Origin: a virus
Direction: 5' to 3' (one strand)
Length of the DNA stretch: 21,294 nt
IMG/VR virus record: IMGVR_UViG_3300042542_004426
Coordinates: 1-21,294 of that record
The position numbers and the translations under genes are program-made. This document shows positions 2,917 through 21,294 of the stretch, in pieces. A model generated the notes under the pieces. It was given only the letters and a program-made list of their open reading frames with translations, was not told the DNA's origin and searched no databases. The first letter of the stretch is position 1. Each line of letters begins with the position of its first letter.

Positions 2917-3177
2917 ATGGCGGATCTGAACAAGGATCTGGAGGAACTGCACGCCGAGGTTGTCAGCGCTGTGCGTGAGCGCATCAGCAATGGCGCCAGC
3001 AATGACGATCTGCGCGTTGCTTTGCAGCTGCTGAAGCAGAACAGTGTCACCGCCAATCTCTCCGAGGATGACACTGCGGCCTTGCGTTCACGCATGGCAG
3101 GCAAGCTCGACTTCTCCGCTCTGAAGGACAAGCCGAAGGTGGTGCCGCTGCGTCAGGACAACCAGCTCAGCGCCTGA
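2917..3177 (+). CDS. terS: Small terminase subunit (DNA maturase A), T7 gp18-like
   Basis: The 86-aa product has the size and helical, charged character of T7 gp18. It begins with an acidic heptad-like helix (DLNKDLEELHAEVVSAVRERI) followed by a second helix with LRVALQLLKQNSVTANL, as in small terminases of T7-like cyanophages. It recognises phage DNA and hands it to the large terminase for packaging. AGGAG at 2904-2908 is a good ribosome binding site 8 nt before the ATG. Its 3' end overlaps the large terminase on the other strand by 11 bp. The call rests on helix pattern, length and position. Confidence 0.65.
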   Translation: MADLNKDLEELHAEVVSAVRERISNGASNDDLRVALQLLKQNSVTANLSEDDTAALRSRMAGKLDFSALKDKPKVVPLRQDNQLSA

Positions 3178-5035
3178 TCCCCCCGTAGGCCATGCCACCA
3201 GGCCGCGGCTTCCAGCCCATCGCTAGGGCATCAATGCAGGCACCGCTTTCATCAAACCAGGCACGCAGGTTTTCATCGTCCATGTCGTCCTTGCGCTGCT
3301 GCTGCGCCTTCTTCTGATCCTGGGCTGCGGCATCGGTGAAGAACTTGACCCCGAGGGCAGTGGCATCGAGCCGGTCATCAAACACCAGCGCACCGCGCTC
3401 GATGGTGATGCGGCTGCACTGGTACATGAGCGACCGCTGGTGGCCGAGCTCAGGATCGCGTTCGGCATCGGCGTAGTCCTTGCGGATCAGCTCACGATTC
3501 ACCACCACCCGATGCTGTTGCACCAGGGGGGCAAGGGTGTCAACGATGCGGCGTTCCTTCTGCTGGCTGACGCGCACCTCCTCGATTGAGACTGGATGCA
3601 CGTTGGCCATCACCGGCTGCAGCAGGGCGGTGAACATGCCATCACCCATGTTGCTCTCGGCCACGCAGTAGCCGACGTTCCAGCGCTGTGCGATCTGCGC
3701 CAGACGCTGCAGCACAGCGGGCTCATACCCGCGGGTGGTGCCACCGCTTTCCAAGAGGAAGAAGTTGCCGTTGAGCTCTGCGATCACAGCCCACGCCAGT
3801 TCATCCGCGCCGCGGCCGGATGGGTCAATCGCCAGCACGCACCGCCAGGTTTCCTCGCGCGTCACCCATCCATCCACCTTGGCTGGACGGTGGTAGTAGC
3901 GATCAGCGCCAAGGCCAACGCACATCAGATCCTGAATCCGCTCATCCGGGCCGGCGGCCCAGACCACCACTTCAGGCAGTGCCTTGCCGTCCAGATCCAT
4001 CACCATCAGATCGGACAGACGAATCGGGTATCGATCGAGGGTGCTGAGACGACAGTTCAGCTGGTACTGCAGTTGGACAGAAGCGCGAGTCATCTTCATT
4101 TCGCGCTTCAGCAGCTCCTCATGGCCAAACCGCTCGGGGTCCGTTGGCGAACCCGCGAGCGATGGCTGCTCAAGCACCGCTTCAGCGATGTCCGGTGACA
4201 GGCTGCCGTCATAGGCATCCCACTCGTCAGGGTCGGAGGGGTTGGGGAACCTGGCCGGCCAGTAGCGAATCGCGTAGTTCCGCTCGCGCACCAGCCGCAG
4301 GTAGAGCGAGGTTTCCAGGTGCGGTGTGCCGAGGTAGCGGATCTGACGAGGGAAGACCTGTCGTTCACCGGCGGCGTTGAAGTCTGGTGGTGCAGACCGA
4401 TCGAAGTCAGGTTCGTCCGGCTTGATGATCACCTCCAGCTCGGTGACGGCCTGGGCCAGACGTTCCTGCTTGAGCGGTGTGATCGAGTTGTTGAGGGTCT
4501 CGATGTCGTCCGGCAACGCCAGGGTGCAGCGCTTGCCGGTGAGCGATGGAGAGAGGATGCCAACGATGCGAACGCTGGGGCTCTGGTCGATGTAGGCCGG
4601 GCCCACGTCGAACGCCTTGACTGACGAGCGGCCATCGGGCTTCGGTTCCAGACAGCGCAGGATGTCCACCTCGCGGATGGCACGCGCCATGAAGGTGGCG
4701 ATCTCCTCAGCCTTGTCTTTGGTGGCAGCAGGGATCAGCACCCGTTCTGAGAAGGGGTCATGCCGCAGCCGCCAGAGGGCATAGGCCGCCCCCTCGAATG
4801 ACTTGCCCAGACCGCGGTAGGCAACGGTGATGGAGGAATCAGGACCGGTCTCCATCCATTGCGCCACTTCCAGCTGGCGCAGTGTTGGCGTGTCGGCCAG
4901 GTTGAGTTCCCGCAACAGGTAGCAGAGGAAATGCGGGAAGGGGCCCAGCTCTGACGGCAGTGGAGTCCACTTCAAGGCAAAGCCCCCCCGCCTAGGACGA
5001 GAGGGCTTCGCACACCACCAATCACCAGAACACAA
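3167..5035 (-). CDS. terL: Large terminase subunit (DNA maturase B), T7 gp19-like
   Basis: This is the ATPase-nuclease that pumps DNA into the prohead. Numbered from 5035 (622 aa), Walker A is YRGLGKS at 73-79 (T7 has FRGIGKS). Walker B is LPDDIE near 174-179. The RNase-H-like nuclease shows AIDPSGRGADE with Asp404, AESNMGDG with Glu460 and DDRLDA near 553-558. The longest start is a TTG at 5035; a second TTG at 4975 would begin MKWTPLP, close to the usual N-terminus of the family, and leave a structured leader. I cannot choose firmly. The orientation is odd: it is antisense to and convergent with the small terminase. Upstream on the same strand lie the 76-aa and winged-helix genes. Confidence 0.92.
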   Translation of the reverse strand: MCSGDWWCAKPSRPRRGGFALKWTPLPSELGPFPHFLCYLLRELNLADTPTLRQLEVAQWMETGPDSSITVAYRGLGKSFEGAAYALWRLRHDPFSERVLIPAATKDKAEEIATFMARAIREVDILRCLEPKPDGRSSVKAFDVGPAYIDQSPSVRIVGILSPSLTGKRCTLALPDDIETLNNSITPLKQERLAQAVTELEVIIKPDEPDFDRSAPPDFNAAGERQVFPRQIRYLGTPHLETSLYLRLVRERNYAIRYWPARFPNPSDPDEWDAYDGSLSPDIAEAVLEQPSLAGSPTDPERFGHEELLKREMKMTRASVQLQYQLNCRLSTLDRYPIRLSDLMVMDLDGKALPEVVVWAAGPDERIQDLMCVGLGADRYYHRPAKVDGWVTREETWRCVLAIDPSGRGADELAWAVIAELNGNFFLLESGGTTRGYEPAVLQRLAQIAQRWNVGYCVAESNMGDGMFTALLQPVMANVHPVSIEEVRVSQQKERRIVDTLAPLVQQHRVVVNRELIRKDYADAERDPELGHQRSLMYQCSRITIERGALVFDDRLDATALGVKFFTDAAAQDQKKAQQQRKDDMDDENLRAWFDESGACIDALAMGWKPRPGGMAYGGIRR

Positions 5036-5355: not shown

Positions 5356-5748
5356 CTATTCCGGCTGTTGCGCGGGGAAGGCATCGAGGAACTGCTGGTA
5401 GAGATGGCCGCGGCGTTGCGGGCTGCCAACAGAAGCGAATTGCGGGTTGATGAGAAAGAAGTTCTGGCCGCTGTGTTGATCGCATGTGCGAACAATGAAG
5501 CGCTGCCTCTGGAGGCGACGAACTGAGGTTGAGCAGCGGGTCTGCTCAATCCCCATGGCCTGGGCCACGGCCTTCTGAGTCATGTTGACGCGACCGCTGC
5601 GCCAGTTGACGTGAGCGAGGAGGGTGAGCAGGACTGACATGTCGATGTGCTGAATCCGCCGCTCGCGCAGGGCTGTGACAACGGAGGTTGCTGCTTCTTC
5701 GGTGAAGACCATTACGAACCCCTCTGAACCGTCTTCATTTCTGTGCAT
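5356..5748 (-). CDS. Winged-helix DNA-binding regulator, RepL-like
   Basis: The 130-aa product has a helix-turn-helix at about residues 56-85 (MTQKAVAQAMGIEQT then STSVRRLQRQRFI). A wing follows and ends in FFLINPQFASVG at 97-108, then RRGHLYQQFLDAF. The order HTH, wing, LNPxF.x.G, hydrophobic end resembles RepL-type plasmid replication/maintenance proteins and related regulators. A CACCACCACC tract directly precedes the ATG on its own strand, as for several early genes on the other strand. CTAGGTGTCG motifs lie 45-80 bp upstream and could be its operators. It may act as a repressor or an origin-binding protein. Confidence 0.6.
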   Translation of the reverse strand: MHRNEDGSEGFVMVFTEEAATSVVTALRERRIQHIDMSVLLTLLAHVNWRSGRVNMTQKAVAQAMGIEQTRCSTSVRRLQRQRFIVRTCDQHSGQNFFLINPQFASVGSPQRRGHLYQQFLDAFPAQQPE

Positions 5749-6247: not shown

Positions 6248-6453
6248 AGCCCTACCCCCCCCCTGCCCCCCCTGCTGCCGCTGGTGGGGTGCTGGCGGCG
6301 GGGCTGCGTGGTGCTGCTGGTGGTGCTGCTGCCCCTGGTGGGCCTGCTGGTGGTGGCCGCGGCGCTGGTGGGGCATCCGCGGGCCGGGCCTGCTGGCGGG
6401 GGCTGGGTTGTCTGCGGATTGGTGATCTGCTCACCACCACCAGCAGGGCAGCA

Positions 6454-6575
6454 GGTGCCCACCAGCAGGCGTGGCCGGTGCCCACCAGCAGGCGTGGCCG
6501 GTGCCCACCAGCAGGCGTGGCCGGTGCCCACCAGCAGGCGTGGCCGGTGCCCACCAGCAGGCGTGGCCGGTGCCC
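6454..6575. repeat. Five exact 23-bp tandem repeats plus a partial sixth
   Basis: Units start at 6454, 6477, 6500, 6523 and 6546 and are identical; a 7-bp partial begins at 6569. Each unit begins GGTGCCCACC, contains CCACCAGC and ends GGCGTGGCC. There are no spacers, so it is not a CRISPR. The period is about two helical turns, as in iterons. It precedes the early genes in a region with no convincing gene, which favours a role in replication or transcription control. Exact identity suggests recent amplification or selection. Confidence 0.85.
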
Positions 6576-6693: not shown

Positions 6694-7461
6694 ATGACCA
6701 GCACCAGCACCAGCACCAGCACCAGCACCAGCACCAGCACCAGCACCAGCACCACCAGGGCCGCGGGTGAGAACGCGATCACGTGCACAGGCACGGTTGC
6801 GGTTCTGCCGCCGTGTCTGCTGTGGGCAGCGAGCCTTGCCGCTTCTGACGACACGGTGAAAGGCGTTATCTGCGCGATCGACGTTCGGCGGACTGCCGAG
6901 GGTTTGATCAGGGTGTGCGCGACTGATGGCCACCGCTTGTTTCGGGTGACCTTCCCTCAGTCTGAGCACTTCTGGATCAGCGCAGAACAGACTGAGCCAA
7001 TCCGGTTGAACCCTGCAGCGTTCTCAAAGGCGCCAACGAAGAAGGCGGTTCACGTTGCGTTGGATGCTTCGGGTGTCTGCACCTTCTCGGACCGTTTGAG
7101 CCAACCCGTGGGGGCTGGTGTGTGGACTGCAGCGACGCAAGCCAACGCGATCGGACAGACCTATCCGAACGTTGACCAGCTGTTCCCTGACGAGTTCAAG
7201 CTCACTTGCAACCCTGCCGCGGCCATCGGGTTTAACGCGTCCTACGTGGGGGACTTCTGCAAGATCGCCAGCAAGCTGACCCATAACGAAGTGGGCATGT
7301 GGCACACCACGGATTCAGCCATTGCGCCGCTGATTCTGCGGGCCTCGCTGCAGCTGGACTGGCTGCTGGTGGAACCCACGGGTTCGAAGTGGTGCCCGGT
7401 GTTCGATCACCCGGACGTGACGCTGGATTACCTGCTCATGCCGGTTCAGATCAGGAAGTGA
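6694..7461 (+). CDS. DNA polymerase III beta sliding clamp-like protein
   Basis: The 255-aa product shows several DnaN-like marks: ICAIDVRR...IRVCATDGHRLFRV at about 59-85 (DnaN typically has ATDGHRL), YPNVDQLFP at 157-165 (compare FPDYxxxiP), FNASYVGDFCKIASKL at 180-195 (compare the domain III opening) and a C-terminal DYLLMPVQIRK (compare YxxMPMRL). Bacterial clamps are about 370 aa, so this is shortened. A clamp encircles DNA and tethers polymerase and repair proteins. Residues 2-19 are nine Thr-Ser pairs encoded by a hexanucleotide repeat, absent from ordinary clamps. The start is fixed by the GAGAGAGACC leader. It may be a diverged clamp that binds host Pol III, a clamp decoy or a regulator. 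Confidence 0.6.
   Translation: MTSTSTSTSTSTSTSTSTSTTRAAGENAITCTGTVAVLPPCLLWAASLAASDDTVKGVICAIDVRRTAEGLIRVCATDGHRLFRVTFPQSEHFWISAEQTEPIRLNPAAFSKAPTKKAVHVALDASGVCTFSDRLSQPVGAGVWTAATQANAIGQTYPNVDQLFPDEFKLTCNPAAAIGFNASYVGDFCKIASKLTHNEVGMWHTTDSAIAPLILRASLQLDWLLVEPTGSKWCPVFDHPDVTLDYLLMPVQIRK
6697..6750 (+). repeat. (ACCAGC)9 hexanucleotide repeat inside the clamp-like gene
   Basis: Nine uninterrupted ACCAGC units follow the start codon and encode a Thr-Ser tail. A change in copy number would lengthen or shorten the tail without shifting the frame. The unit is related to the CACC tracts in the leaders, so slippage in the same sequence type may have created it. Confidence 0.95.
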
Positions 7462-8934: not shown

Positions 8935-9008
8935 CGGGGCCCTTCCTGCTGCTGCAGGTGGGCCTCCTGCAGGCCTCAGGCCTGTCACACCACCAGCACC
9001 AAACCACA
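8935..9008 (+). repeat. Intergenic module, copy 3 (partial)
   Basis: CTGCAGG through CACACCACCA at 8967-8995 is identical to 7494-7522 of copy 1, including CAGGCCTCAGGCCTG. The 5' part differs: the GAGGCC hairpin is replaced by other GGGCC/GGCCC-rich sequence. The leader is ACCAGCACCAAACCACA before the ATG at 9009, without GAGAGAG. Confidence 0.7.
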
Positions 9009-10280: not shown

Positions 10281-11279
10281 ATGACTGGATCTGTTCGCCG
10301 TTGCGCGGATGGCAGCTGGGTTGCCGACGTGACGATCAACGGCATCCGCCGGACCGGGAAGTGCCGCACCAAGGCAGAGGCGACCGCTCGCAAGCGTGAG
10401 CTGCTCGACCAACTGATGCGCCGTGAAGCAAGCCCATTCCCCAGCGGTGCGTTCTGCCTGCGTGAAGCCCGGGCCCTCTCGATCAGGGTTCGCTGGTCTG
10501 GCCTGGCATACGAGCGGACCGCTGCCATCTACAGCCAGGAGGCCGTCAACCATTTCGGCGCCAGCTTCCCCCTCTCAGAGATCACTGCCCAGCTGGTGGA
10601 CAGCTGGCGGCAGGCCCTGCAGAGCAAGGGCAACCGGCCGAGCACGATCAACATGAAGGTGTCGGCCCTGCGCTCGATGCTCGCCGATGCCCACCTGCAC
10701 GGGCACCTGGCGGAAGTCCCGAGGATGCCCCGCCAGCTCAAGCTGACCAACACCAAGGACCGGGTGATCAGCGACGATGAGCGCGACCGCTTCTGCAAGT
10801 TCTTCTGCCAGCGGGGTGAGCCCGCCGCGGCCGATCTGCTGGTGTTCTTGTTGGAGACCGCTTGCCGCTGGGGTGAAGCCGAGCGGCTGCGTGGTGACGA
10901 CGTGGACCTGGCCCGCGGACGGGTGACCTTCTGGGCCACCAAGAACGGCAAGCCCCGCACCGTCCCACTCACCCGCCGCGCGATCGACGCCATCACACCC
11001 CACCTGCCGGCGGTTGGTGGGCACCGTGTCTGGCCCTACCCCTACTGGCAGTTCAAACGCCTGTTCGAGCAGGGCAAGGCCTCGATGGGACTGGAGGATG
11101 AGCCGGCCCTGACGATTCACACCACGCGCCACACCTGCGCCAGCAAGCTGGCCAGCCGGGGCATCCCCCTGCACCAGCTGATGACCTTTGGCGGGTGGAC
11201 ATCCCTGGCCAGCGTGCAGCGTTACCTGCACCTGAACACCGATGCGCTGGCTGCCTGCGTCAGTGCGCTGGAGGCCTGA
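10281..11279 (+). CDS. int: Tyrosine-recombinase integrase
   Basis: The 332-aa product has an N-terminal arm-binding segment (about 1-45, GSWVADVTINGIRRTGKCRT), a SAM-like core-binding domain (about 75-150) and a catalytic domain. Catalytic residues are visible: Arg196 in ETACRWGEAERL, Lys221 in TKNGKPRTVPL, His280-x-x-Arg283 in IHTTRHTCAS, Trp306 in the position often His (FGGWTS), and nucleophile Tyr315 in SVQRYLHL. It would integrate and excise phage DNA at the tRNA-like site about 590 bp downstream. The order integrase, att, RNA polymerase matches what I recall of cyanophage P-SSP7. No inactivating change is visible. Confidence 0.93.
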   Translation: MTGSVRRCADGSWVADVTINGIRRTGKCRTKAEATARKRELLDQLMRREASPFPSGAFCLREARALSIRVRWSGLAYERTAAIYSQEAVNHFGASFPLSEITAQLVDSWRQALQSKGNRPSTINMKVSALRSMLADAHLHGHLAEVPRMPRQLKLTNTKDRVISDDERDRFCKFFCQRGEPAAADLLVFLLETACRWGEAERLRGDDVDLARGRVTFWATKNGKPRTVPLTRRAIDAITPHLPAVGGHRVWPYPYWQFKRLFEQGKASMGLEDEPALTIHTTRHTCASKLASRGIPLHQLMTFGGWTSLASVQRYLHLNTDALAACVSALEA

Positions 11280-11757: not shown

Positions 11758-11869
11758 TGCGCTTTGTACTGTGGATGCGTTCACCGGATCCAGATTTCTG
11801 CTGCAGTCGTCCGCATCCAGCAGACCTCGGCAGACCCCAGAAACCCTGAGAACCGTTGGTACAACTGGC

Positions 11870-11914
11870 GGGAGCATGGCGGAAATGGCAGACGCAGCGG
11901 ACTTAAAATCTGCG
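11870..11914 (+). other. attP: Probable attP: 5' half of a tRNA-Leu(UAA) gene
   Basis: The sequence folds as the 5' part of tRNA-Leu. GGGAGCA (11870-11876) would be the 5' acceptor strand, followed by TG. The D-arm has stem GCG/CGC (11879-11881, 11893-11895) with loop GAAATGGCAGA. The anticodon arm is GCGGA/TCTGC with loop CTTAAAA and anticodon TAA at 11904-11906. No T-arm or 3' acceptor strand (TGCTCCC expected) follows, so this is not a complete tRNA. A tRNA fragment directly downstream of an integrase operon is the classical form of a phage attachment site. The anticodon loop is uninterrupted, so the matching host gene should lack the group I intron found in many cyanobacterial tRNA-Leu(UAA) genes. 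Confidence 0.75.
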
Positions 11915-11983: not shown

Positions 11984-14437
11984 ATGTCGGGTGGAATTGA
12001 TGCCGAAAGCAGCCTGAACTGCAGCCTGATGACCCAATGCAGTTCATCCGCAGGGGTGGAAGGAACCCAGAGGCAGAGGGAACAGCGGGAACTAGAGCGG
12101 GCTCACTGGGCCGCGATCAACGCCACCAGCCGCCTGAAGACCCTCGGCCGCGAGTCGGCCACAGCTCACGGCCAGGCCCTGTTCACGCAGCACGCCGAGC
12201 GGGTGACGGTGGCCCTGGGGCTGCTGCTGGAGGAGCTGCTGGCCAACCCGAGCAAGGCCGGGCGACACCTGGCCTGCTGGCCGCTGCTGCTGCTGGTCAA
12301 CCGAGGCCCCCGCTCGATGGCCCTGATTGCCCTGTCGGTGGTGATCGACACGATCAGCAAGCGACCGCTCGACACCACGCTGGCAGTGGCGATCGGCCGC
12401 GCCCTGGAGGATGAGATCAAGGCCTCTCGCATCGAGGCCAACCGTGGGCAGGCCCTGCTGCGGTTGATCCGTCGCCGGCTTGGCGCTCGGCGCCTGTCCG
12501 ATCCGAAGGTGCTGGCTCAGCTGCGACTGGACACCAGCGGCTGGGAGCCCTCGCAACGCCGGATGGTGGGGCTGCTGCTGCTGGAGGTGATCGAGGCCAA
12601 CACCGATCTGATCCAGTTTCGGAACGTCACCAGCCGCCGCCGGTCGCAACGGCTTGTTGAGGCCACCAAGGCAGCCATGGCCGTGATTGCTGCCAATCCG
12701 CCGCGGCCATCACCAGCACGGAAGCTGCCGCTGCTGCTGCCGCCACGCGACTGGCCGGGCATGGTCGGCGGTGGCCACCTGAGCAGCAGCGAACCGCTGG
12801 TGCATGGCCGTGGTGGGCAGGACTTCAGCTACATCACCCCGGATGGCCTGGCGCCGGTGCTGCGGGTTGTGAACCACCTGCAGCGGCAGCAGCTGCTGGT
12901 CGATCCCTGGATGGTTGAGCAGCAGCGCCTGGCCTGGGACCACAACATCTGCGGGGTGTTCCCTGTCCGCCGCGAGGGACGACCGGAACCGCCGCGGCCG
13001 ACCGAGATGGTTGGGGCTGAGGCGTGGGGCGACTACCAGCGGGAGAGGCGTGCAGCGCTGCGGGAACAGCTGGAAGGTGCCAGCGAGCGGCGACGAATTG
13101 AGAGCTCGATCCGGCAGTGCGAGGAGGTTGCCGGGTTGCCGGTCTGGTTCGCCTACTTCGCCGACTTTCGCGGGCGGATCTTCAGCAGCAACCGCTATGC
13201 CACCCACCAGGGGCCCGACTGGGAGAAGGGGGCAATTCAGTTCGCGGCAGGCGATCGGGTCTCGGTGGAGGGGTTCGAGTGGTTGCTGAAGGCCGCCGCC
13301 GGCCACTGGGGAATCAGCAGCAGCTGGGCAGATCGCCTGCGCTGGGGGCAGCAGCACATGCCCGAACTGGTGGCCGCGGCCGAGGCACCGCTTGACCGTC
13401 TGGGGTTGTGGCGCGATGCGAAACAGCCCTGGCAGTTCCTGCAGCTGTGCCGCGCGATTGCCCAGCAGGTGGCAGACCCGGACAGCTTGTGCGCGGTGCC
13501 GATCCGGTTTGATCAAACCTGCTCAGGCATTGGCATCAGCGCAGCGCTGCTGCGCGACCGCCCCCTGGCCCGGCTGACCAACATTTGGGGGCAGACCCGG
13601 CAGGACATCTACGGGCATGTGGCTGAGCGGCTGATCCACCTGCTGCGGATGGATCTGAGCAACGGGATGGAAGCAGAGCAGCGACTGGCTGAGTTCTGGC
13701 TGGGCTTCGGCATCAACCGCAGCGTGACGAAGGGCCCGGTGATGACGAGCGTTTACGGGGCTCAGCACATGGGCATCACCGAGGGGTTGATTGCCCTGCT
13801 CACAGAGCGCGATACCGACCTGCGGGTGGGGCAGTGGCAGCGGGGCTACGTGACGCCGGCCAGCTACCTGAGCCGCAAGCTGACGCTGCTGCTGCAAGCA
13901 GAGCTCGGCAGCTGCATTGCATTGCGCAGCTGGCTCAAGGACACATGCCGCGAGGTTGTCAGCCGAGGCCGGCCGCTGCGATGGACCAGCCCGATGGGGT
14001 TCCCGGTGCAGCTGGGGCAACAGCTCGATGGCAGGCGCAACGTGACGAGCCTGACCCGAGGGCAGCGGCGATGGCAGGCGGCCGGCGAGGAAGCGATGGC
14101 GAAGGAGCTGAGCGCCCGGCAGACCAACACCTCGATCAGCAGCAACTTCATCCACAGCTTTGACGCGGCCCTGTGCCACAGCATTGTCTCGATGTGTGCA
14201 GAGCAAGGGGTTGCGGTCCTAGTGAACCACGACTGTTTTGCGACGACGCCCGGCCGAGCTGGATGGCTGCACCAGGCGCTGCACGACGCGTTGCGGGCCT
14301 TGTATGCGCCCGACTGGATGGCTGAGGTTGCGGCCGAGATCGCAGGTAACAACAGGGATCTCAAGATCAAGGCGCCGCCGATGGTTGGCAGCTTGTGCCC
14401 GGGAGAGATCGGGCACAACCCAAACTGCTTCTCATGA
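11984..14437 (+). CDS. Single-subunit DNA-dependent RNA polymerase, T7 gp1-like
   Basis: The 817-aa product (T7: 883) carries the family motifs. FADFRGRIF at 392-400 is the DxxGR loop. FDQTCSGIGISAALLRD from Asp510 is motif A with the first catalytic Asp. NRSVTKGPVMTSVYG at 578-592 is motif B, with Arg579, Lys583 and Tyr591 spaced as T7 Arg627, Lys631 and Tyr639. NFIHSFDAALCHS is at 721-733. VNHDCF at 747-752 is motif C with Asp750. All catalytic residues are present. The C-terminus is NPNCFS where T7 ends FAFA. It would transcribe middle and late phage genes. The start is uncertain: ATG 11984 has no good ribosome binding site and an in-frame ATG at 12029 is possible. It is the first gene after the attachment site. 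Confidence 0.95.
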   Translation: MSGGIDAESSLNCSLMTQCSSSAGVEGTQRQREQRELERAHWAAINATSRLKTLGRESATAHGQALFTQHAERVTVALGLLLEELLANPSKAGRHLACWPLLLLVNRGPRSMALIALSVVIDTISKRPLDTTLAVAIGRALEDEIKASRIEANRGQALLRLIRRRLGARRLSDPKVLAQLRLDTSGWEPSQRRMVGLLLLEVIEANTDLIQFRNVTSRRRSQRLVEATKAAMAVIAANPPRPSPARKLPLLLPPRDWPGMVGGGHLSSSEPLVHGRGGQDFSYITPDGLAPVLRVVNHLQRQQLLVDPWMVEQQRLAWDHNICGVFPVRREGRPEPPRPTEMVGAEAWGDYQRERRAALREQLEGASERRRIESSIRQCEEVAGLPVWFAYFADFRGRIFSSNRYATHQGPDWEKGAIQFAAGDRVSVEGFEWLLKAAAGHWGISSSWADRLRWGQQHMPELVAAAEAPLDRLGLWRDAKQPWQFLQLCRAIAQQVADPDSLCAVPIRFDQTCSGIGISAALLRDRPLARLTNIWGQTRQDIYGHVAERLIHLLRMDLSNGMEAEQRLAEFWLGFGINRSVTKGPVMTSVYGAQHMGITEGLIALLTERDTDLRVGQWQRGYVTPASYLSRKLTLLLQAELGSCIALRSWLKDTCREVVSRGRPLRWTSPMGFPVQLGQQLDGRRNVTSLTRGQRRWQAAGEEAMAKELSARQTNTSISSNFIHSFDAALCHSIVSMCAEQGVAVLVNHDCFATTPGRAGWLHQALHDALRALYAPDWMAEVAAEIAGNNRDLKIKAPPMVGSLCPGEIGHNPNCFS

Positions 14438-14511: not shown

Positions 14512-15183
14512 ATGCCACGACAGATCATCGTCAGCCCCCTTGGCCTTGCTGAGTGGGCCAAGGTCATTGAGCCCGGCGAGGCCTACGAGAAGGAGAACCC
14601 GCCCGAGTGGACCCTCGATCTGGTGCTCGATCCGAACAACAACGCCGCCCACCTGGACTTCATCAGCCAGATCGAGCTCTGGTTTCAAGAGCTGCATGGC
14701 AGCCGGGCGAAGGTGGCCGAACGCGGCTGGCCGTTCCGTGACCACCTGGACGCCGACAAAAAGCCGGACGGCCTGGTCACCGTGCGGTTCAAGCGCACCA
14801 CCATCAGCCGCAAGGGCAATCCCGTGCCCGCGCCGGTTGTCGTCGATGCCAAGAAGAAGCCCTGGAACCGCGATCTGCTGATCGGCAACGGCAGCAAGGT
14901 GAAGGTGGGCTTCGGCTACTACGGCTGGGAACGCGGCGGCCGGCACGGCATCAGCCTCGACCTCTCGGCGGTGCAGGTGCTCGACCTTGTGCCCTACGAA
15001 ATGCCAGATCCGACCGGCGCCTTTGCCGAGGAAGACGGCTTTGAGATTGAGGAGGCACCAGAAACCGCGGTGTTCAGCGCTGAGCCGGAGGCCGCAACCA
15101 ACAGCGTTCTGGACCGTGCTCGTCGGCAGCGTGCTGCCGCCGTGTCCGAACCCGAGCTGGACGACGAGGAGCTGCCCTCCTGA
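14512..15183 (+). CDS. Single-stranded DNA-binding protein, T7 gp2.5-like
   Basis: With ATG 14512 the product is 223 aa and begins MPRQIIVSPLGLAEWAKV; an ATG at 14485 is less likely because it lies beside the palindrome. An OB-fold-type first part includes EWTLDLVLDPNN, VTVRFKRTTIS and SKVKVGFGYYGWERGGRHGISLDLSAVQVLDL. The last 50 residues are a low-complexity acidic tail ending ELDDEELPS, as in gp2.5, where the tail binds replication partners. It coats ssDNA in replication and recombination. It is followed by the RuvC-like gene with a 1-bp overlap. The order RNA polymerase, SSB, endonuclease matches T7. Confidence 0.82.
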   Translation: MPRQIIVSPLGLAEWAKVIEPGEAYEKENPPEWTLDLVLDPNNNAAHLDFISQIELWFQELHGSRAKVAERGWPFRDHLDADKKPDGLVTVRFKRTTISRKGNPVPAPVVVDAKKKPWNRDLLIGNGSKVKVGFGYYGWERGGRHGISLDLSAVQVLDLVPYEMPDPTGAFAEEDGFEIEEAPETAVFSAEPEAATNSVLDRARRQRAAAVSEPELDDEELPS

Positions 15184-15647
15184 TGGCTGCACGTATCTTC
15201 GCCATTGATCCGGGCCCGGAGGTGTCGGCCTTCGTCTGTTGGGACGGGCAGCGGATTGTCGATCACGACATTGTTGGCAACGTCCTGATGCTGGAGAGGC
15301 TCAGAACTCTCTCGCTTGACAACGGTCCTGTACGTGTAGCGATTGAAATGATCGCCAGTTACGGGATGGCCGTTGGCGCGGAAGTGTTTGAGACCTGCGT
15401 CTGGATTGGCCGCTTCATTCAGGCCTCACCAGTCTTCTGCGAGCGCTACTTCCGCAGCAGCATCAAGCTGCACTTGTGCGGCACGGCCAGGGCCAAGGAT
15501 GCCAACGTGCGTCAGGCCCTGATTGATCTGATCGGTCCGCAAGGAAGGAAGGCAGCGCCTGGCCCCACCTACGGCATCCGCTCGCACTGCTGGGCGGCGC
15601 TGGCTGTAGCGGTCTATGCGGCCAGTTGCGTGGAGATTCCGTTCTGA
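15183..15647 (+). CDS. RuvC-like Holliday junction resolvase / RNase H-fold nuclease
   Basis: The 154-aa product opens MAARIFAIDPGPEVSAFVCW with Asp9 in the RuvC-type IDPG strand. VRVAIEMIASYG has Glu55 as the second acidic residue. The C-terminal helix, SHCWAALAVAVYAA (134-147), sits where RuvC carries DxxDALA, but here has His135 and no acidic pair; Asp106 in RAKDANVR may substitute. It occupies the slot of T7 gp3 endonuclease and would resolve branched replication intermediates before packaging. It overlaps both neighbours (TGATG with SSB, ATGA-type with the next gene). The fold is likely; the exact active site is uncertain. Confidence 0.75.
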   Translation: MAARIFAIDPGPEVSAFVCWDGQRIVDHDIVGNVLMLERLRTLSLDNGPVRVAIEMIASYGMAVGAEVFETCVWIGRFIQASPVFCERYFRSSIKLHLCGTARAKDANVRQALIDLIGPQGRKAAPGPTYGIRSHCWAALAVAVYAASCVEIPF

Positions 15648-16027
15648 TGAAACCTCGCATCAGTGAGTTTCTGCTGCCACTGCCAGCGCAGCTCAAGACC
15701 AAAACCCTGTTCACCGGCAGGGTTGAGGCCGATGACGATTACAGCCAGTGGGCTCGACACTGCCGAGCCATCATCGCCGAATGGTGGGCGGTGCCGCCGT
15801 TGGCCAAGGGCTTGGTCATCGCTTTGCAGATCACTTTTCGCGGCATCGAAGCCAGCGAACTGGACAAGCTGCAGGTGGCGCTGCTGCGTGCTGGCCATGG
15901 AATCGTTTGGGCTGAAGACCCAATCACTGTTCTGCGCCGTGCTGAAGGCAAGGGCAGTCAATCTCCGAGCCAACTTATCAACCTCAAGGTGATCTGGAAT
16001 GACAATGCCGTACCCGCCACTGCTTGA
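15647..16027 (+). CDS. Possible RusA-like Holliday junction resolvase
   Basis: The ATG is fixed by overlap with the previous stop, giving 126 aa. The pattern LVIALQITFRG then SELDKLQVALLRAGHGIVWAEDPITVL and a final strand LINLKVIW follows RusA, whose core reads DLDNLQKAxxDAL...WxDDxqV. Relative to RusA, Asp70 becomes Glu, Asp72 is kept, Lys76 becomes Val, and the later acidic pair is Glu-Asp. It is therefore either a diverged resolvase or an inactive relative. Its position next to a RuvC-like gene supports a DNA-junction role. I rate the fold as plausible, the activity as open. Confidence 0.45.
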   Translation: MKPRISEFLLPLPAQLKTKTLFTGRVEADDDYSQWARHCRAIIAEWWAVPPLAKGLVIALQITFRGIEASELDKLQVALLRAGHGIVWAEDPITVLRRAEGKGSQSPSQLINLKVIWNDNAVPATA

Positions 16028-16199
16028 GCAGAGCTGCGAAATCTGCCGCTACAGCGAGCAGGATGTGCCGACCATGGCGCGATGCAGGCGCAGCGCACCA
16101 TCACCGCTGCCGATTGACAACGAGATCCTGGCCCGCTGGCCGCTGGTGTTGCCGACCGATTGGTGCGGCGAGTGGGCGCCGCGGGAGGAAGGCCAATGA
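15999..16199 (+). CDS. Small zinc-binding Cys4 protein (66 aa)
   Basis: Four Cys are arranged CEIC (13, 16), then MARCRR (29) and DWCGEW (56). I recall this CxxC...CR...WP.V..DWCGEW layout from short phage and prophage proteins. It probably forms one zinc or iron-sulfur site. It overlaps the RusA-like gene by 29 bp and the next gene by ATGA. Start may be residue 1 or the second Met. Role unknown. Confidence 0.65.
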   Translation: MTMPYPPLLEQSCEICRYSEQDVPTMARCRRSAPSPLPIDNEILARWPLVLPTDWCGEWAPREEGQ

Positions 16200-16807
16200 A
16201 GTGCCCACACTGCGGCCACAACCGCAACCGAGTCACCGAGACCAGGGCGCGAGATGACGGTGACCTGAGAAGGCACCATTGCCTGCACTGCGCCAAGACC
16301 TTCCAGAGCATTGCTCGGATCTGCGTCTATGCCGGCCGGGCAACGGGCTACATCGAGGCCGCGCAGCCGCTTGCCACGGTCACAGCAACGCCAGAGCCAG
16401 AGCCGATCAAGCAACCGGCAGAACCCACACCGGCGAAGCCGCGAGTCAACAACCGGCGGTGGCACCCAAGCGCTGTGCCGCATGGCGTGTGCGATGAAGC
16501 GGCGCCGCTGATGCTGGAGTGGTGGAACGAAAGCCGCCGCCACAAGCAAGGCGGCAAGGCCGTCTGGACAGAACGAGCGTGGCTCGAATCGGTTGCCCGG
16601 GTGGCGCAGCTGCCAGCAGCGCAGCAGGTGCAGCTCTGCCGCGCAGGCGTGGAGTTTGGTTGGCAGGCCCTCAAGTCTGAGTACCTGGGCAACAAGTCCG
16701 AGCCAACGGTCCGCACCGATGGCCGCCTGCTGCCGCAGGATCCTCGGCTGCTTGAAGCGATCCGACTGGAACACGAAGCGGAGGATCTATGGCCCGCCGC
16801 CAGCTGA
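16196..16807 (+). CDS. NrdR-type zinc-ribbon protein with unrelated C-terminal helical domain
   Basis: With the ATG in the ATGA overlap, the product is 203 aa. Residues 1-40 closely follow the zinc ribbon of the repressor NrdR: CPHCG (Cys3, Cys6), VTETRARDDGDLRRHHC (Cys29), LHC (Cys32) AKTFQSI. NrdR's ATP-cone is absent. Residues about 55-85 are a Pro/Glu linker. The C-terminal half is helical (APLMLEWWNESRRH, WTERAWLESVARVAQL, GVEFGWQALKSEYL) and recalls the ends of phage replication-organiser proteins, where a GWxxL motif recurs. It could bind DNA at the origin or regulate genes. The position is that of the missing primase or polymerase genes. Function inferred. Confidence 0.6.
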   Translation: MKCPHCGHNRNRVTETRARDDGDLRRHHCLHCAKTFQSIARICVYAGRATGYIEAAQPLATVTATPEPEPIKQPAEPTPAKPRVNNRRWHPSAVPHGVCDEAAPLMLEWWNESRRHKQGGKAVWTERAWLESVARVAQLPAAQQVQLCRAGVEFGWQALKSEYLGNKSEPTVRTDGRLLPQDPRLLEAIRLEHEAEDLWPAAS

Positions 16808-17319
16808 CAGCCGAGATCTTCATGACCGTCATCGACATGGTGGCCGGTCATCTGCGTCTCAAGGATGCGGACCGCTGGGGGCCGCAGATCGCCCGGCTGA
16901 AGTTCCGCAGCTTCGTCGGCGAGTTCCCCGAGGTGTCTGAGCAGCAGTTCGTCTGGGCTGCTGAGCGTTGGATCCAGTCGTTGCCGACAGGGTTCACCCG
17001 GTTCCCGACCTGGCGGGAGCTGATGGCGCCGCTGTACCGCTGCGAGAACGGCATGGCCAATCGCAGCTGGGGGTTCCGGCCTGATCTGCCGTTGATCTTG
17101 GCGCCAACGGAGGAGCAGCTGCAACTGCTGCCGCAGCAGCGAAGGTCGATCGCTGCAGCGCCTGATCCGCACAACGCCGAGGCCTATGTGCCATTCCATG
17201 TGGAATGGGCGCCGTCGTTGCCACCGGCTGCAGCGGAGGCCGGCCCGCTGACCGCTGAGGTGTGGGCCGAATACCTGCAGTGGGCGCAGCAGGAAGAAGC
17301 CCAGTTGGCGGATGCCTGA
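16789..17319 (+). CDS. Hypothetical protein, possibly helicase-loader-like
   Basis: The 176-aa product starts with an ATG 4 nt after GGAGG, and overlaps the previous gene by 19 bp. The first 90 residues are helical: EIFMTVIDMVAGHLRL, WGPQIARLKFRSFVGEFP, EQQFVWAAERWIQSL, then TGFTRFPTWRELMAPLY. A helical domain ending in a xxFPTxxEL-type loop resembles loader-type phage replication proteins (lambda P and others). The similarity is only in pattern. The C-terminal part is Pro/Gln-rich and variable. It could bring host DnaB to the phage origin, which would fit the lack of a phage primase-helicase here. Confidence 0.5.
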   Translation: MARRQLTAEIFMTVIDMVAGHLRLKDADRWGPQIARLKFRSFVGEFPEVSEQQFVWAAERWIQSLPTGFTRFPTWRELMAPLYRCENGMANRSWGFRPDLPLILAPTEEQLQLLPQQRRSIAAAPDPHNAEAYVPFHVEWAPSLPPAAAEAGPLTAEVWAEYLQWAQQEEAQLADA

Positions 17320-17519
17320 TGGACCCGCTGATGACGCTATCCGAGCTGAGGGGAATCCTTGAGCGCGGATTGGTTACCGGCAAATGGTCGGTGCTGCAGT
17401 TCAACAAGTCGGGCCGGGATGTGGTGTTACCCACCAAGGAGTTTCTGGCACAACATCCACAGTTTGAAAACATGGAGTTTCGAGACATGGCAGCGTTTCG
17501 CAAGCATCACGGCACATGA
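17319..17519 (+). CDS. Hypothetical small protein (66 aa)
   Basis: The ATG overlaps the previous stop (TGATG). The product has an N-terminal helix MTLSELRGILERGLVTG, a short strand region WSVLQFNKSGRDVVLP, and a helix near the end. The N-terminal SELRGILERG looks like a small DNA-binding or interaction helix. No family recognised. It is coupled to the next gene by ATGA. Confidence 0.6.
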   Translation: MDPLMTLSELRGILERGLVTGKWSVLQFNKSGRDVVLPTKEFLAQHPQFENMEFRDMAAFRKHHGT

Positions 17520-17740
17520 GCTGGACGCATGAATACGAGGTTGGCCAGGAGGTGAAGTGCCACTTCCAAGGCCAATGGTGCCGCGGGGCAATTTGCTCCA
17601 AGCGCACGCGAAGCCTGATGGTTTTTCTGGGCAAGCACGGCCACACGAACATTCACGACCCTCGCAACATCACACCATGGCAACCGAGCAAGAAGAAAGA
17701 GTCCTCGATGTCTCCCGAGAATCCGTCATTCGAGTTTTGA
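17516..17740 (+). CDS. Hypothetical small beta-rich (SH3-like) protein
   Basis: The 74-aa product reads EYEVGQEVKCHFQGQWCRGA, then KRTRSLMVFLGKHGHTNIHD, a run of short strands typical of SH3- or Tudor-like barrels, followed by a Lys/Ser-rich tail. Start by ATGA overlap. Such domains often bind basic peptides or nucleic acid. Role unknown. Confidence 0.55.
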   Translation: MSWTHEYEVGQEVKCHFQGQWCRGAICSKRTRSLMVFLGKHGHTNIHDPRNITPWQPSKKKESSMSPENPSFEF

Positions 17741-17850
17741 AGATGGCACGCAAACACCATGACGAGTGCGTTGAGCGCAGCTACGCGCAGACGTGGTGGG
17801 CTGGGTACATCAGGTGCTGCGAACAGCTCCTGGACATGGAAAACGAGTGA
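17677..17850 (+). CDS. Hypothetical small helical protein (57 aa, start uncertain)
   Basis: From ATG 17677 the gene overlaps the previous one by 64 bp. A start at ATG 17743, giving 35 aa, would leave a 2-bp gap. The body, RKHHDECVERSYAQTWWAGY, is amphipathic, with three Cys and two adjacent Trp. It overlaps the following start by 1 bp. Neither start has a clear ribosome binding site. No family recognised. Confidence 0.45.
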   Translation: MATEQEERVLDVSRESVIRVLKMARKHHDECVERSYAQTWWAGYIRCCEQLLDMENE

Positions 17851-18296
17851 TGACTGACTTCCGCGCCCTGTGCGCTGAGCTGGTTGAACTCAGTGCCCCA
17901 ACAGATTCTATTCCTCAACTAGTTGAGCGTCTTCAGAACTTAGCTGAGTTGGCAAACCGCGCCCGCGCTGCGCTGGCCCAGCCCGAGCCGCAGGGGCCGA
18001 CAGGGGACGACATGAACGACCTAGCGGACGACCTGCTGGGGATCGTGCTTCCCGAGGGCTCCGGCGCCAGACTGATCACGCGAGCCCTAGAGCTGTGGGG
18101 CCGCCCCGCCATCGAGCCGGTGCCGGTGAGCGAGCGGTTGCCGGGGCCGGAGGATTGCGATGCGGAGGGGAAGTGTTGGTGGTTTGACCGCGAATGTGAT
18201 ACGTGGTCCTTTAACGAAGGCAGGCTTGAAGAGGAGACTCACTGGGCACCGCACTGGGCGCTGCCTGTGCCTGGGGTGGAGGGTGCCGATGCTTAA
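17850..18296 (+). CDS. DUF551-domain protein
   Basis: The 148-aa product has an N-terminal helical segment (DFRALCAELVELSAP and PQLVERLQNLAELANRARAA). The C-terminal DUF551-like part from about residue 88 reads PVPVSERLPGPED, then WWFDRECDTWSF and THWAPHWALPVP. DUF551 is a small beta domain with the pattern xVxExLP...W...THWxPxPxLP, widespread in phages, with unknown function. The start overlaps the previous stop by 1 bp. Confidence 0.7.
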   Translation: MTDFRALCAELVELSAPTDSIPQLVERLQNLAELANRARAALAQPEPQGPTGDDMNDLADDLLGIVLPEGSGARLITRALELWGRPAIEPVPVSERLPGPEDCDAEGKCWWFDRECDTWSFNEGRLEEETHWAPHWALPVPGVEGADA

Positions 18297-18426
18297 CGCC
18301 CTGCTCGCCCTCGCCCTGCTGCTCGCCCTCGGCGCAGCGGTTGAGCTGTGCATCAAGGTGGCCTTCGTGCGCCTGCTGCCCTTGCTGCTGAGGTTGCCAT
18401 CGAGTCGAGTTGGAGGTCAGCGATGA
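18289..18426 (+). CDS. Small membrane protein (45 aa)
   Basis: LNALLALALLLALGAAVELC is an unbroken hydrophobic segment, followed by IKVAFVRLLPLLLRLPSS and a short basic end. One or two membrane helices are likely. The start overlaps the DUF551 gene by 8 bp and the end forms ATGA with the next gene. Small size makes this call less secure, but packing of neighbours supports it. Confidence 0.5.
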   Translation: MLNALLALALLLALGAAVELCIKVAFVRLLPLLLRLPSSRVGGQR

Positions 18427-18644
18427 CCTGGAATCGAAGCCTGTTGCCCGATGAGCCGCAGCCATTCCTTGGCCCGGGCATCAGCAGGCCCAAGCCGAAA
18501 CAGCTGACACGGCTTTTCAGTCTGGAGGTGCAATGCCCCGGCACCCGTCTGATGCACTTGCAGATCCCGGCGCCCAGTAAGGCTGATGCAATCCGCTACT
18601 GCGAGAACCGCTGGCCTGATGCAACTATTACCTTCATCAAATGA
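18423..18644 (+). CDS. Hypothetical protein (73 aa)
   Basis: A Pro-rich N-terminus (SLLPDEPQPFLGPGISRPKP) leads to a compact alpha/beta part: FSLEVQCPGTRLMHLQIPAP, then SKADAIRYCENRWPDATITFI. The second part (strand, strand, helix with AIRYCENRWP, strand) resembles small cyanophage proteins with an xKxAIxYAxNRWP pattern, recalled without a name. ATGA overlaps at both ends. Function unknown. Confidence 0.55.
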   Translation: MTWNRSLLPDEPQPFLGPGISRPKPKQLTRLFSLEVQCPGTRLMHLQIPAPSKADAIRYCENRWPDATITFIK

Positions 18645-18850
18645 CCCTGACAGAACATCTAACTGAGCTCTACTGGGGGCTAAACGAGTACAGCATTGAT
18701 GACCAACGCCGGATGCAGGTGGTCATCCATGAGATCAGCCAGATCATCCGCGGCTGGGCGCCTGATGAGGGGCTCGCGCGGATCACCCATCTCGCCATCA
18801 CCGGAGTGGCCGACCGCCTGCTGGAACAAGCCATGGAACCCAAGTCATGA
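18641..18850 (+). CDS. Hypothetical small helical protein (69 aa)
   Basis: All-helical: LTEHLTELYWGLNEYSI, DDQRRMQVVIHEISQIIRGW, LARITHLAITGVADRLLEQA. It is coupled by ATGA at both ends, directly before the exonuclease, so it is translated with it. Could be an exonuclease partner. No family recognised. Confidence 0.55.
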   Translation: MTLTEHLTELYWGLNEYSIDDQRRMQVVIHEISQIIRGWAPDEGLARITHLAITGVADRLLEQAMEPKS

Positions 18851-19605
18851 AACTGCTGATCGACACAGAGCTCTACCTGTTTGCCGCTGCATCCGCCTGC
18901 GAGTTCGAGGCGGAATGGGACACCGACGACTGGACCTACCTCTGCCGTCATGGTGATGTGAAGGCCTCGCTGCAGGATTCGATCGCGGCCATCCGCGAGG
19001 TGTTCCCTGATGGTCAACCCGTCCTGGCGTTTGGCGATCGCGCATCCTTCCGCTATGGCATCTGGCCCAGCTACAAGGCCAACCGCAAGAGCTACCGCAA
19101 GCCCGCCGGCTACCGCGAGCTGGTGGCCTGGGTTGAGACGGTGGCACCCACCAGGGGATGGGAGGTGGCGCGGCTGCCTGACGTGGAAGGTGATGACGTG
19201 CTGGGCATCCTGTGCGAACCCGGCGATGTCATCTGCAGCTGGGACAAGGACATGCTCACCATTCCCGGTCTGCACTTCCGGCGCAAGGAGGTGGTGGAGG
19301 TTGATCAACTTGCTGCTGACCGTGCTTTTTACACGCAGGTGCTCACCGGCGATGCGGCCGACAACTACCCCGGCTGCCCCGGCTACGGGCCCGTGACCGC
19401 CGAGCGGTTGCTGGCAGGTTGGACAACGGACGTTGATTTCTGGCGTGAGGTGGTCAACGCCTACACGCTCAAGAGCAAGGCCGGCACGCGCGAGGCCGCC
19501 GAGAAGCTGGCACTGCAGCAGGCCCGCTGCGCTCGCATCCTGCGGGCCGGCGAATACGACCTGGCGACCAACACTCCCCGGCTGTGGAACCCTCCGGTAG
19601 CCTGA
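18847..19605 (+). CDS. 5'-3' exonuclease, T7 gp6-like (FEN/PIN fold)
   Basis: The 252-aa product has the FEN acidic pattern: KLLIDTELYLFAAA (Asp6), LAFGDRASFRYGIWPSYKANR (Asp64 and the basic YKANR), VEGDDVLGIL (Glu114, Asp116, Asp117), ICSWDKDMLTI (Asp133, Asp135) and LTGDAADNYPGCPGYGP (Asp169, Asp172) leading into the helix-three-turn-helix. It degrades one strand of duplex DNA 5' to 3', removes RNA primers, promotes recombination and helps recycle host DNA. Length is typical (T7 gp6 about 300). In T7 the order is primase, polymerase, exonuclease; here the exonuclease follows a run of small unknown genes and no polymerase. Confidence 0.88.
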   Translation: MKLLIDTELYLFAAASACEFEAEWDTDDWTYLCRHGDVKASLQDSIAAIREVFPDGQPVLAFGDRASFRYGIWPSYKANRKSYRKPAGYRELVAWVETVAPTRGWEVARLPDVEGDDVLGILCEPGDVICSWDKDMLTIPGLHFRRKEVVEVDQLAADRAFYTQVLTGDAADNYPGCPGYGPVTAERLLAGWTTDVDFWREVVNAYTLKSKAGTREAAEKLALQQARCARILRAGEYDLATNTPRLWNPPVA

Positions 19606-19619
19606 TCTCATCTGCATAC

Positions 19620-19633
19620 CTGCAGTGCTGCAG
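19620..19633. promoter_or_regulatory. CTGCAGTGCTGCAG intergenic motif, copy 2
   Basis: Identical to 214-227. It lies 15 bp after the exonuclease stop and ahead of the virion module. It includes the GTG proposed as start of the next gene, so either that start is really downstream or the motif is not a promoter. Confidence 0.35.
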
Positions 19634-19810
19634 CCTCTTGTCACCGAACAGCTGATTGCTCGATTGCAGGATGTGTTTCCTGCTGCTCCCTCGCGGCACA
19701 TGACAGTCCGCGAGGTTGATCACCTGATCGGGCAACAGGAAGTAGTGACCTACCTGCAGCGGTTGCTGGAGGAGGAGAAAGATTTGCCGCTCAACGTGGA
19801 GGATCTCTGA
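19625..19810 (+). CDS. Small protein between exonuclease and virion genes (61 aa)
   Basis: A GTG start is assumed; it lies in a repeated palindrome and lacks a ribosome binding site, so the protein may begin later. The body, LVTEQLIARLQDVFP, then HMTVREVDHLIGQQEVVTYL and LLEEEKDLPLN, is helical and acidic. Its stop overlaps the next ATG by 1 bp. The position matches T7 gp6.5 and its neighbours. Function unknown. Confidence 0.5.
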   Translation: MLQPLVTEQLIARLQDVFPAAPSRHMTVREVDHLIGQQEVVTYLQRLLEEEKDLPLNVEDL

Positions 19811-20214
19811 TGTGCTTTGGAGGGGGCGGCAGCCCGGCCACCATCACGATGCCCGACACCGGCGCTTACGACCGGCTGGCGCAGATGCAGATGGATGCCA
19901 TGCGCCAGTCGCAGGATGGCGCCATCAAGGTCAAGCAGGGCGAGCTGAACCAGGCGCTGACGGCGCAACAGGAATCACTGGCTCAGCTGCGCGATGTCAA
20001 GACTGCTCGCGCGAATGACACCGCTGCCAATGCCGCGCGGATGGCAGCGCTGATCGGCACGCCACCGCCGGACAAGGCGGCAACGGCACCCGTGCTGGGC
20101 AGTGACCGCGCCGAGATGAGCCGCCCGGCTGGCAAGCGCGGGCTGCGCATCGACCGGGCTACGGCCACCACGGCCGGCGCTGGCACCGGACTCAACATCA
20201 CCACAGGAGTTTGA
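19810..20214 (+). CDS. gp6.7/gp7.3-like small virion protein, paralogue 1
   Basis: The 134-aa product begins MCFGGGGSPATITMPD, as T7 gp6.7 begins MCFSPK. The middle is Gln/Ala-rich and coiled (DRLAQMQMDAMRQSQDGAIK, ALTAQQESLAQLRDVK). The C-terminal part has KRGLRIDR (109-116; T7 gp6.7 has RKGLKVER) and GTGLNI at 125-130, like the GGGINI end I recall in gp7.3. Both T7 proteins are minor particle proteins needed for infectivity. Homology is inferred from end motifs, size and the position just before the portal. It is a paralogue of the next gene. Confidence 0.6.
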   Translation: MCFGGGGSPATITMPDTGAYDRLAQMQMDAMRQSQDGAIKVKQGELNQALTAQQESLAQLRDVKTARANDTAANAARMAALIGTPPPDKAATAPVLGSDRAEMSRPAGKRGLRIDRATATTAGAGTGLNITTGV

Positions 20215-20216
20215 TC

Positions 20217-20606: not shown

Positions 20607-20607
20607 C

Positions 20608-21294
20608 ATGGGTTGCGAACGCGACTACCGGCAGCTGGAAGGCGACAGGAACAACTACCTGGAGCGGGCCCGCACCGCTGCCCGGTACACCCTGCCGTAC
20701 CTGATCCCGATCAGCGACAGCTACACCCCGGGGCAGAACCAGCAGTGGGGGCTGCCCTGGAATGGCCTTGGTGCTCGTGGCGTTCACAACATCACCAGCC
20801 GGTTGACGTTGGCGTTGCTGCCGCCAACGGAGGCGTTCTTCCGGTTCACGATTGACGAGATCGAGCTGGCCACCCAAGAGCAGGAAGCCCTGGCGGCCGG
20901 CGCCACACCCGAGGATCTGGCCAAGGGCAAGAGCACGTTTGATCTGGGCCTGGCCAAGCTCGAACGCGCCGTGCTGCGCAGCATCGAAACCAGCAACGAC
21001 CGGGTGGCGGTCCACGAAATGCTGATGCACCTGATCGTGGGCGGCAATGCGCTGCTCTACGTCAGCGAGAAGGGGTTGCGGTGTTTCCACCTGGACCGCT
21101 ATGTGCTGCGGCGCGATCCGATGGGCAACCCCCTGCAGGCGATCGTGTGCGAGGAACTCAGCGTTGAGAACCTGCCCCCACGGGTGAAGGCTGTTCTCGA
21201 TGAGGAAGATGGCGACAGGATCGCCGGCATCGACGACGAGGACGGTGACGACGACGCCTCCGAATACGACCGGACGGTGAAGCTGTTCACCTGC
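20608..21294 (+). CDS. Portal (head-tail connector) protein, T7 gp8-like, 3' end outside window
   Basis: The frame is open to the window edge (229 codons seen; T7 gp8 is 536 aa). Matches to gp8 are clear: NNYLERARTAARYTLPYLIP (compare APYETRAQNCAQYTIPSLFP), WNGLGARGVHNITSRLTLAL (compare WQAVGARGLNNLASKLMLAL), LIVGGNALLYV (compare LVVAGNVLLYL) and LDRYVLRRDPMGNPLQ (compare LSSYVVQRDAFGNVLQ). A very acidic stretch with about ten Asp/Glu lies near residues 194-216. Twelve portal subunits form the ring through which DNA enters and leaves the capsid. ATG 20608 follows the previous stop by 1 bp. Confidence 0.92.
   Translation, partial: MGCERDYRQLEGDRNNYLERARTAARYTLPYLIPISDSYTPGQNQQWGLPWNGLGARGVHNITSRLTLALLPPTEAFFRFTIDEIELATQEQEALAAGATPEDLAKGKSTFDLGLAKLERAVLRSIETSNDRVAVHEMLMHLIVGGNALLYVSEKGLRCFHLDRYVLRRDPMGNPLQAIVCEELSVENLPPRVKAVLDEEDGDRIAGIDDEDGDDDASEYDRTVKLFTC

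Follow-up and report, generated by a model that had tools for sequence, protein, structure and literature searches.

T7-like phages are the textbook example of a self-contained replisome, and in phage lambda the helicase is supplied by the host. The polymerase-less marine cyanopodoviruses (MPP-C, here represented by P-SCSP1u) lack a DNA polymerase and keep the primase-helicase (gp4), and host DNA polymerase I (Pol I), host DNA polymerase III (Pol III) or an unseen polymerase have been proposed to copy their genomes (PMC9860041). Phage SPP1 recruits the host replisome by means of gp38, which acts at the origin, the loader gp39 and the helicase gp40 (PMC6316719). Phage S-SRP02 has been cultured and grows lytically with a burst of ~50 (PMC8790148). 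Here we analyze the replication block of a 21,294-b linear virus record with a GC content of 63% (IMG/VR record IMGVR_UViG_3300042542_004426; 'the window' denotes this whole stretch). The window is best explained as a fragment of an S-SRP02-like podovirus (Autographiviridae), probably infecting freshwater picocyanobacteria like its relatives, and as coming from a T7-like phage that has lost both the gp5 polymerase and the gp4 primase-helicase.

We regard the locus as a T7-like replication variant with a candidate new loader cassette, which is real and unusual, and not categorically new. It goes a step beyond MPP-C (2022), whose mechanism stayed open, in that the polymerase and the helicase-primase are both gone and a conserved candidate replacement is present. 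Our searches of open-licence papers turned up no T7-like phage reported to have lost both.

Polymerase and primase-helicase genes in the window and its relatives

The window has the features expected of the Autographiviridae: a single-subunit RNA polymerase and a T7-type terminase, portal, gp2.5 and exonuclease, in conserved order (Table 1). A first-pass annotation, made from the letters alone, had described a block with single-stranded DNA-binding protein (SSB), endonuclease and exonuclease in T7 order, only small genes between the resolvases and the exonuclease, and neither a PolA-type polymerase nor a replicative helicase anywhere in the window. Pfam and PHROG matches confirm the gene content and order of the block (14512-19605), the open reading frames (ORFs) between the RusA-like gene and the exonuclease are all small, and profile searches of the window with PF00476 (PolA) and PF03796 (DnaB_C) gave no match. 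The typical gp5 and gp4 replisome, which not all accepted T7-like members have, had no match in the window or its relatives.

The window is a partial genome, a fragment of a larger virus. S-SRP02 is a complete isolate genome (42,143 b, circular), and compared with it the stretch missing from the window holds the portal, scaffold, capsid, tail tube, internal virion and fibre genes. Relatives were collected by a search with the zinc-ribbon protein of the block (21 loci) and an alignment search with its loader-like protein (best 80 of 112 encoding stretches). Forty-six records, including the window and two described phages, carry both genes, and 23 records, S-SRP02 among them, are at least 37 kb long. 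None of the 46 matched the PolA profile and none the DnaB_C profile, and searches for PolB and the Pol III alpha subunit (DnaE) were negative in all 24 cassette-bearing records searched. As positive controls, T7 and P-SSP7 matched the PolA profile, and S37-C6, S31-C1 and P-SCSP1u, which have no DNA polymerase yet keep gp4, matched DnaB_C. S-SRP02 is annotated as complete and circular, S38-C3 ends in a 50-b terminal repeat, and record G011 shows an 89-b terminal overlap.

Recognizable PolA, PolB, DnaE and DnaB-family genes are absent across the lineage. An assembly gap is ruled out as the cause, because dozens of contigs, and the complete genome of the isolate S-SRP02, show the same block lacking gp4/gp5. 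With the 46 records negative, 23 of them of at least 37 kb, the missing half of the window is unlikely to hide a PolA or DnaB gene; none was matched elsewhere in the complete relatives, S-SRP02 included.

The S-SRP02-like cluster, to which Stopalavirus S38-C3 belongs, shares the block order and the cassette with the window, besides the identities in RNA polymerase and large terminase subunit (TerL) given in Table 1. S-SRP02 likewise lacks gp4/gp5 and also has the sliding clamp described below; the window differs in an extra Holliday junction resolvase, in ArdC (absent in S-SRP02) and in a YkuD protein. The S-SRP02 paper bases a tree on a 'DNA polymerase', listed as ORF34, and its available passages mention no lack of polymerase or helicase (PMC8790148). 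ORF34 (L022:22389-23129), publicly annotated as 'DNA polymerase I', encodes a 246-aa protein with 5'-3' exonuclease domains only, and the marker used in the published tree appears to be this exonuclease. Surveys based on DNA polymerase markers will miss the S-SRP02-like lineage, which has over 100 stretches in IMG/VR.

The three-gene cassette and the sliding clamp

The gp4/gp5 position, between the resolvase and exonuclease genes, holds a conserved cassette of a zinc-ribbon gene (gene 1), a loader-like gene (gene 2) and a gene for a 66-aa protein (gene 3). The zinc-ribbon and loader-like genes at 16196 and 16789 had been singled out as replacements by the first-pass annotation; both stand, and the conserved set has three genes, not two. 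In 105 of 107 loci, gene 1 overlaps the start of gene 2 and ends 6 to 15 bases beyond it, a layout suggestive of translational coupling. Gene 3 follows gene 2 in 106 of 108 loci, with both misses at sequence ends; it is fused to gene 2 in record G014, and among the loci searched it is always accompanied by gene 2. The cassette is present throughout the gp4-less genomes, and genes 2 and 3 are absent where gp4 is present. Conservation, position and co-occurrence of the cassette are direct observations; the 66-aa protein itself has no database match.

The profile of gene 1 matches NrdR in the PDB (4.1e-10), essentially over the ribbon only, and the zinc cysteines are at least 90% conserved among 42 homologues. 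Publicly the protein is annotated as 'NrdR', but Pfam scans found no ATP-cone in it, and for this reason we reject its identification as an NrdR repressor. In the AlphaFold2 (AF2) model (pLDDT 82) the ribbon is followed by a helical C-terminal domain, the helices of which carry a very conserved WWNESR...W...GWQ pattern. As for the proposal that this end of the protein resembles a replication organizer, matches to phrog_678 ('replication initiation O-like') are weak and were obtained for 6 of the 42 members, with a lowest E of 0.0016, and the C-terminal end alone reaches 0.18, in one of ten members. A likeness to lambda P (TM 0.26) is too weak and was disregarded. We consider the gene 1 product a candidate replisome organizer or origin-binding partner. 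Within the zinc-ribbon gene lies a mosaic junction, downstream of which (window 16625-21294) the DNA is 96-99% identical to L050/L051/L004; the RNA polymerase of the same contigs (L002/L003) is ~44% identical.

The loader-like protein has no sequence-level relative in Pfam, PHROGs or PDB profiles, and its only relatives among 50,697 phage records are in S-SRP02 and S38-C3. Its AF2 model (pLDDT 86) superimposes best on the SPP1 helicase loader G39P (1no1; TMt 0.66, root-mean-square deviation 3.4, E not significant), with all other PDB matches at or below 0.33. Among the first fifty matches of the model in a viral structure library, eight bear the name replisome organizer and one that of G39P, and an RFPTW-EL motif after the third helix lines up by eye with KFPPT-DL of G39P. 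This predicted fold is in line with the loader-like character that the first-pass annotation had seen at 16789. Because profile-profile comparison was negative and no profile matched, we make no claim of membership in the G39P family; the fold-level support is for a protein that may work like a helicase loader, not for one that 'is a G39P'. We know of no phage helicase loader described for these hosts.

The clamp-like gene at 6694, earlier counted with the replication set, encodes a real relative of beta clamps: a profile of 49 homologues matches PDB beta clamps with 2.2e-8. Since the alignment, over ~230 residues, starts at about residue 150 of the three-domain DnaN and runs to its C-terminus, the phage protein has two domains, and not three per subunit as in the bacterial beta clamp. 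Of the 31 cassette-bearing records tested for the gene, 6 carry it, which rules it out as a core component; it is an optional extra and not essential to the scheme discussed below. A perfect 6-bp repeat of 9.7 copies (window 6697-6754) codes for Ser-Thr at the start of the clamp, and a shorter run is found in the related strain L126.

Lineage and modes of replication

In a tree of the RNA polymerases, all cassette-bearing entries form one group (93/96), in which the window pairs with S-SRP02 (100/98). The group stands beside S37-C6 (MedDCM, Oinezvirus) and S31-C1 (Nohivirus), in a joint clade (100/100), and apart from P-SCSP1u, P-SSP7, Syn5 and T7; the branch of P-SCSP1u and the outgroup branches are long. 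A possible affiliation with the polymerase-less marine cyanopodoviruses, which the first-pass annotation had raised, can be discarded. MPP-C resembles the window in its T7-type RNA polymerase, its exonuclease and the lack of a DNA polymerase, but gp4 is a core gene there and absent here, its GC content is 34-39%, its RNA polymerase is only ~25% identical and takes a separate place in the tree, and none of the three cassette genes was found in P-SCSP1u. Two contigs of the phage lineage, L217 (RFPL01000019.1) and L218 (JAIXOF010000111.1), are located in metagenome-assembled genomes (MAGs) of a Sphingomonadaceae and a Cyanobium, respectively, the former probably mis-binned.

S37-C6 and S31-C1, the sister lineage, share with the window the lack of PolA and the presence of an NrdR-type ribbon gene, flanked by the resolvase and exonuclease genes. 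They differ in that gp4 is kept, the ribbon gene, a stand-alone NrdR-like gene directly before gp4, is without the helical C-terminal domain, and neither the loader-like nor the 66-aa gene is present. Their gene content suggests an intermediate state. In the simplest reading, the polymerase was lost first, with gp4 retained beside the ribbon gene, and gp4 was then replaced as the ribbon protein gained its helical domain. This sequence of events is inferred, and a single origin with long outgroup branches amounts to one historical event, not many independent ones.

Genomes of the S-SRP02 type replicate in their host, as the burst of the cultured phage shows, and because S-SRP02 does so without a recognizable polymerase or primase-helicase of its own, use of the host replisome is the best inference; the host most likely supplies polymerase, helicase and primase. 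We propose, with a probability of roughly 0.68, that after the loss of gp5/gp4 the three-gene cassette marks or opens the origin and delivers host DnaB, and that host DnaG and Pol III replicate the genome. The zinc-ribbon, loader-like and 66-aa proteins would mark or open the viral origin and bring the DnaB helicase to it, whereupon DnaG and Pol III would copy the genome; the retained SSB, exonuclease and resolvases would handle recombination and concatemers, and the two-domain clamp would assist where present. The first-pass picture of a virus with its own RNA polymerase that borrows the host replisome is secure in its first half, by the polymerase match given in Table 1, and probable in its second.

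By analogy, this is most likely a T7-like phage that recruits host DnaB and Pol III in the manner of lambda and SPP1. As in SPP1 gp38-gp39-gp40 and lambda O-P, an organizer-like gene precedes a small loader-like gene. Gene order in SPP1 was checked with a shorter SPP1 record and relatives. SPP1 differs in that it brings its own DnaB (gp40), whereas the helicase of the window must come from the host, as in lambda, and no sequence homology between G39P and the loader-like protein could be detected. Neither SPP1 nor lambda has a T7-type RNA polymerase or a ribbon domain. We also speculate, at somewhat less than even odds, that the whole replisome was replaced by a new, sequence-unrelated family of DnaB-recruiting cassettes that grew around the ribbon gene beside gp4. 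If the proposal is right, transcription by a phage RNA polymerase is combined in replication with cyanobacterial Pol III machinery. Since S-SRP02 is in culture, and possible intermediates (S37-C6, S31-C1) and a candidate replacement are known, the replication of polymerase-less T7-like phages becomes directly testable.

Several points weigh against the recruitment of host DnaB by the cassette. Contact with DnaB, the location of the origin and the use of Pol III are all inferred. The Foldseek E-value for 1no1 is 8.1, matches to non-homologues in the viral library have E of at least 0.2, and hhalign of the loader-like protein against an 11-member G39P alignment falls within the shuffled null. 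The host of the window is deduced from relatives only. G39P is described as both loader and inhibitor, so that a role in host shut-off is possible as well.

This last point leads to the strongest competing explanation, which we nevertheless consider unlikely: the role of the cassette is to block host replication or to control transcription, and the host replisome is recruited otherwise, for example by host DnaA/DciA or at R-loops made by the RNA polymerase. In its favor are the annotation of G39P homologues as 'loader and inhibitor', the N-terminal NrdR-type ribbon of gene 1, which is a domain of transcription factors, and the possibility that a T7-type RNA polymerase supplies primers, as in T7. 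However, the NrdR ATP-cone is missing, the cassette sits at the gp4 position throughout gp4-less genomes, and its loader-like and 66-aa genes are lacking from those that have gp4.

Still less probable is that polymerase and helicase are encoded, either too divergent to recognize or in the unsequenced half. The window is a fragment, and searches with hidden Markov models do not exclude wholly new families; but the complete relatives had no match elsewhere, and all ORFs of at least 300 aa in S-SRP02 and S38-C3 are structural or lysis genes, TerL, integrase, ArdC or RNA polymerase, which leaves no polymerase-sized candidate. Two large unassigned minus-strand ORFs in record G005 are, by eye, copies of one methyltransferase-like protein. 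Use of host Pol I (T7 gp5 family) with the host helicase, proposed as an option for MPP-C and congenial to a phage that keeps a PolA-type 5'-3' exonuclease domain in a protein of its own, is the least probable of all, as the main role of Pol I is in repair (PMC9860041) and the beta-type clamp of some members fits Pol III better.

Other features of the window

The left part of the window holds fibre and lysis genes and, on the minus strand, terL; early genes, integrase and RNA polymerase lie in the middle, and the replication block and the start of the portal gene on the right.

Table 1. Features of the window, with coordinates, strand and basis of assignment
Feature	Coordinates	Strand	Basis and remarks
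Probable small terminase subunit	2917..3177	+	convergent with terL; conserved in relatives; by-eye likeness to terL-adjacent ORF of P-SCSP1u
Terminase large subunit, T7 type	3167..5035	-	PF22530 1.5e-34; 80% identical to S-SRP02
Winged-helix protein	5356..5748	-	MarR_2 in 8/8 members, RepL in 5/8, best 4e-5
23-bp tandem array, 6 copies	6437..6575		Tandem Repeats Finder (TRF); candidate origin or regulator sites
Two-domain beta-type sliding clamp	6694..7461	+	ends LMPVQIR
Tyrosine integrase	10281..11279	+	PF00589 1.7e-20
47-bp tRNA-Leu(UAA)-like core, candidate attP	11864..11910	+	downstream of integrase
T7-type single-subunit RNA polymerase	11984..14437	+	PF00940 2.1e-51; 62% identical to S-SRP02 over whole query
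Gp2.5-like SSB / annealing protein	14512..15183	+	phrog_112 5.7e-17
Holliday junction resolvase	15183..15647	+	phrog_1770 2.9e-13
RusA-like resolvase	15626..16027	+	46% identical to S-SRP02 protein annotated RusA
Cassette gene 1, NrdR-type zinc ribbon + helical C-terminal domain	16196..16807	+	
Cassette gene 2, candidate loader of the host helicase DnaB	16789..17319	+	
Cassette gene 3, 66-aa orphan	17319..17519	+	
5'-3' exonuclease, T7 gp6-like / PolA N-domain type	18847..19605	+	PF02739 1.1e-9; phrog_107 7.4e-52
Portal (head-tail connector)	20608..21294	+	runs off contig; PF12236 1e-25

The RusA-like gene is kept across most of the S-SRP02-like lineage, and the Holliday junction resolvase before it is a second resolvase, common only to the window and G014 among the compared genomes. 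The same distribution is found for a YkuD L,D-transpeptidase-type protein (window 2348-2914), possibly related to lysis; its place in S-SRP02 and S38-C3 is taken by a C39 peptidase or LytF.

The winged-helix protein may, from its domain matches, be a regulator or a candidate origin binder; we set it aside as the small terminase subunit because the ORF at 2917-3177 is the better fit by eye. The 23-bp array lies in non-coding DNA between the winged-helix and clamp genes, with a G-poor stretch beside it and a non-coding stretch of AT-richer composition (5800-5950) nearby. In L126, a strain 94-98% identical, the array is kept and its unit has changed in concert. A role as lineage-wide origin was rejected and the array is retained only as a candidate, because S-SRP02 has no comparable array and S38-C3 only a two-copy 21-bp repeat.

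The tRNA-Leu-like core is 100% identical to that of L050/L051 within otherwise divergent DNA. In a search for the host, it matched none of 151 genomes from the family to which a Cyanobium MAG belongs (at most 2 mismatches) and none of 6 genomes from its genus (at most 3 mismatches). Repeated intergenic modules precede early genes (window 7463-7561, 8514-8600 and 8967-9008), and some are followed by a (CCA)n-GAGAGA-ATG leader, seen among the compared genomes in the window only.

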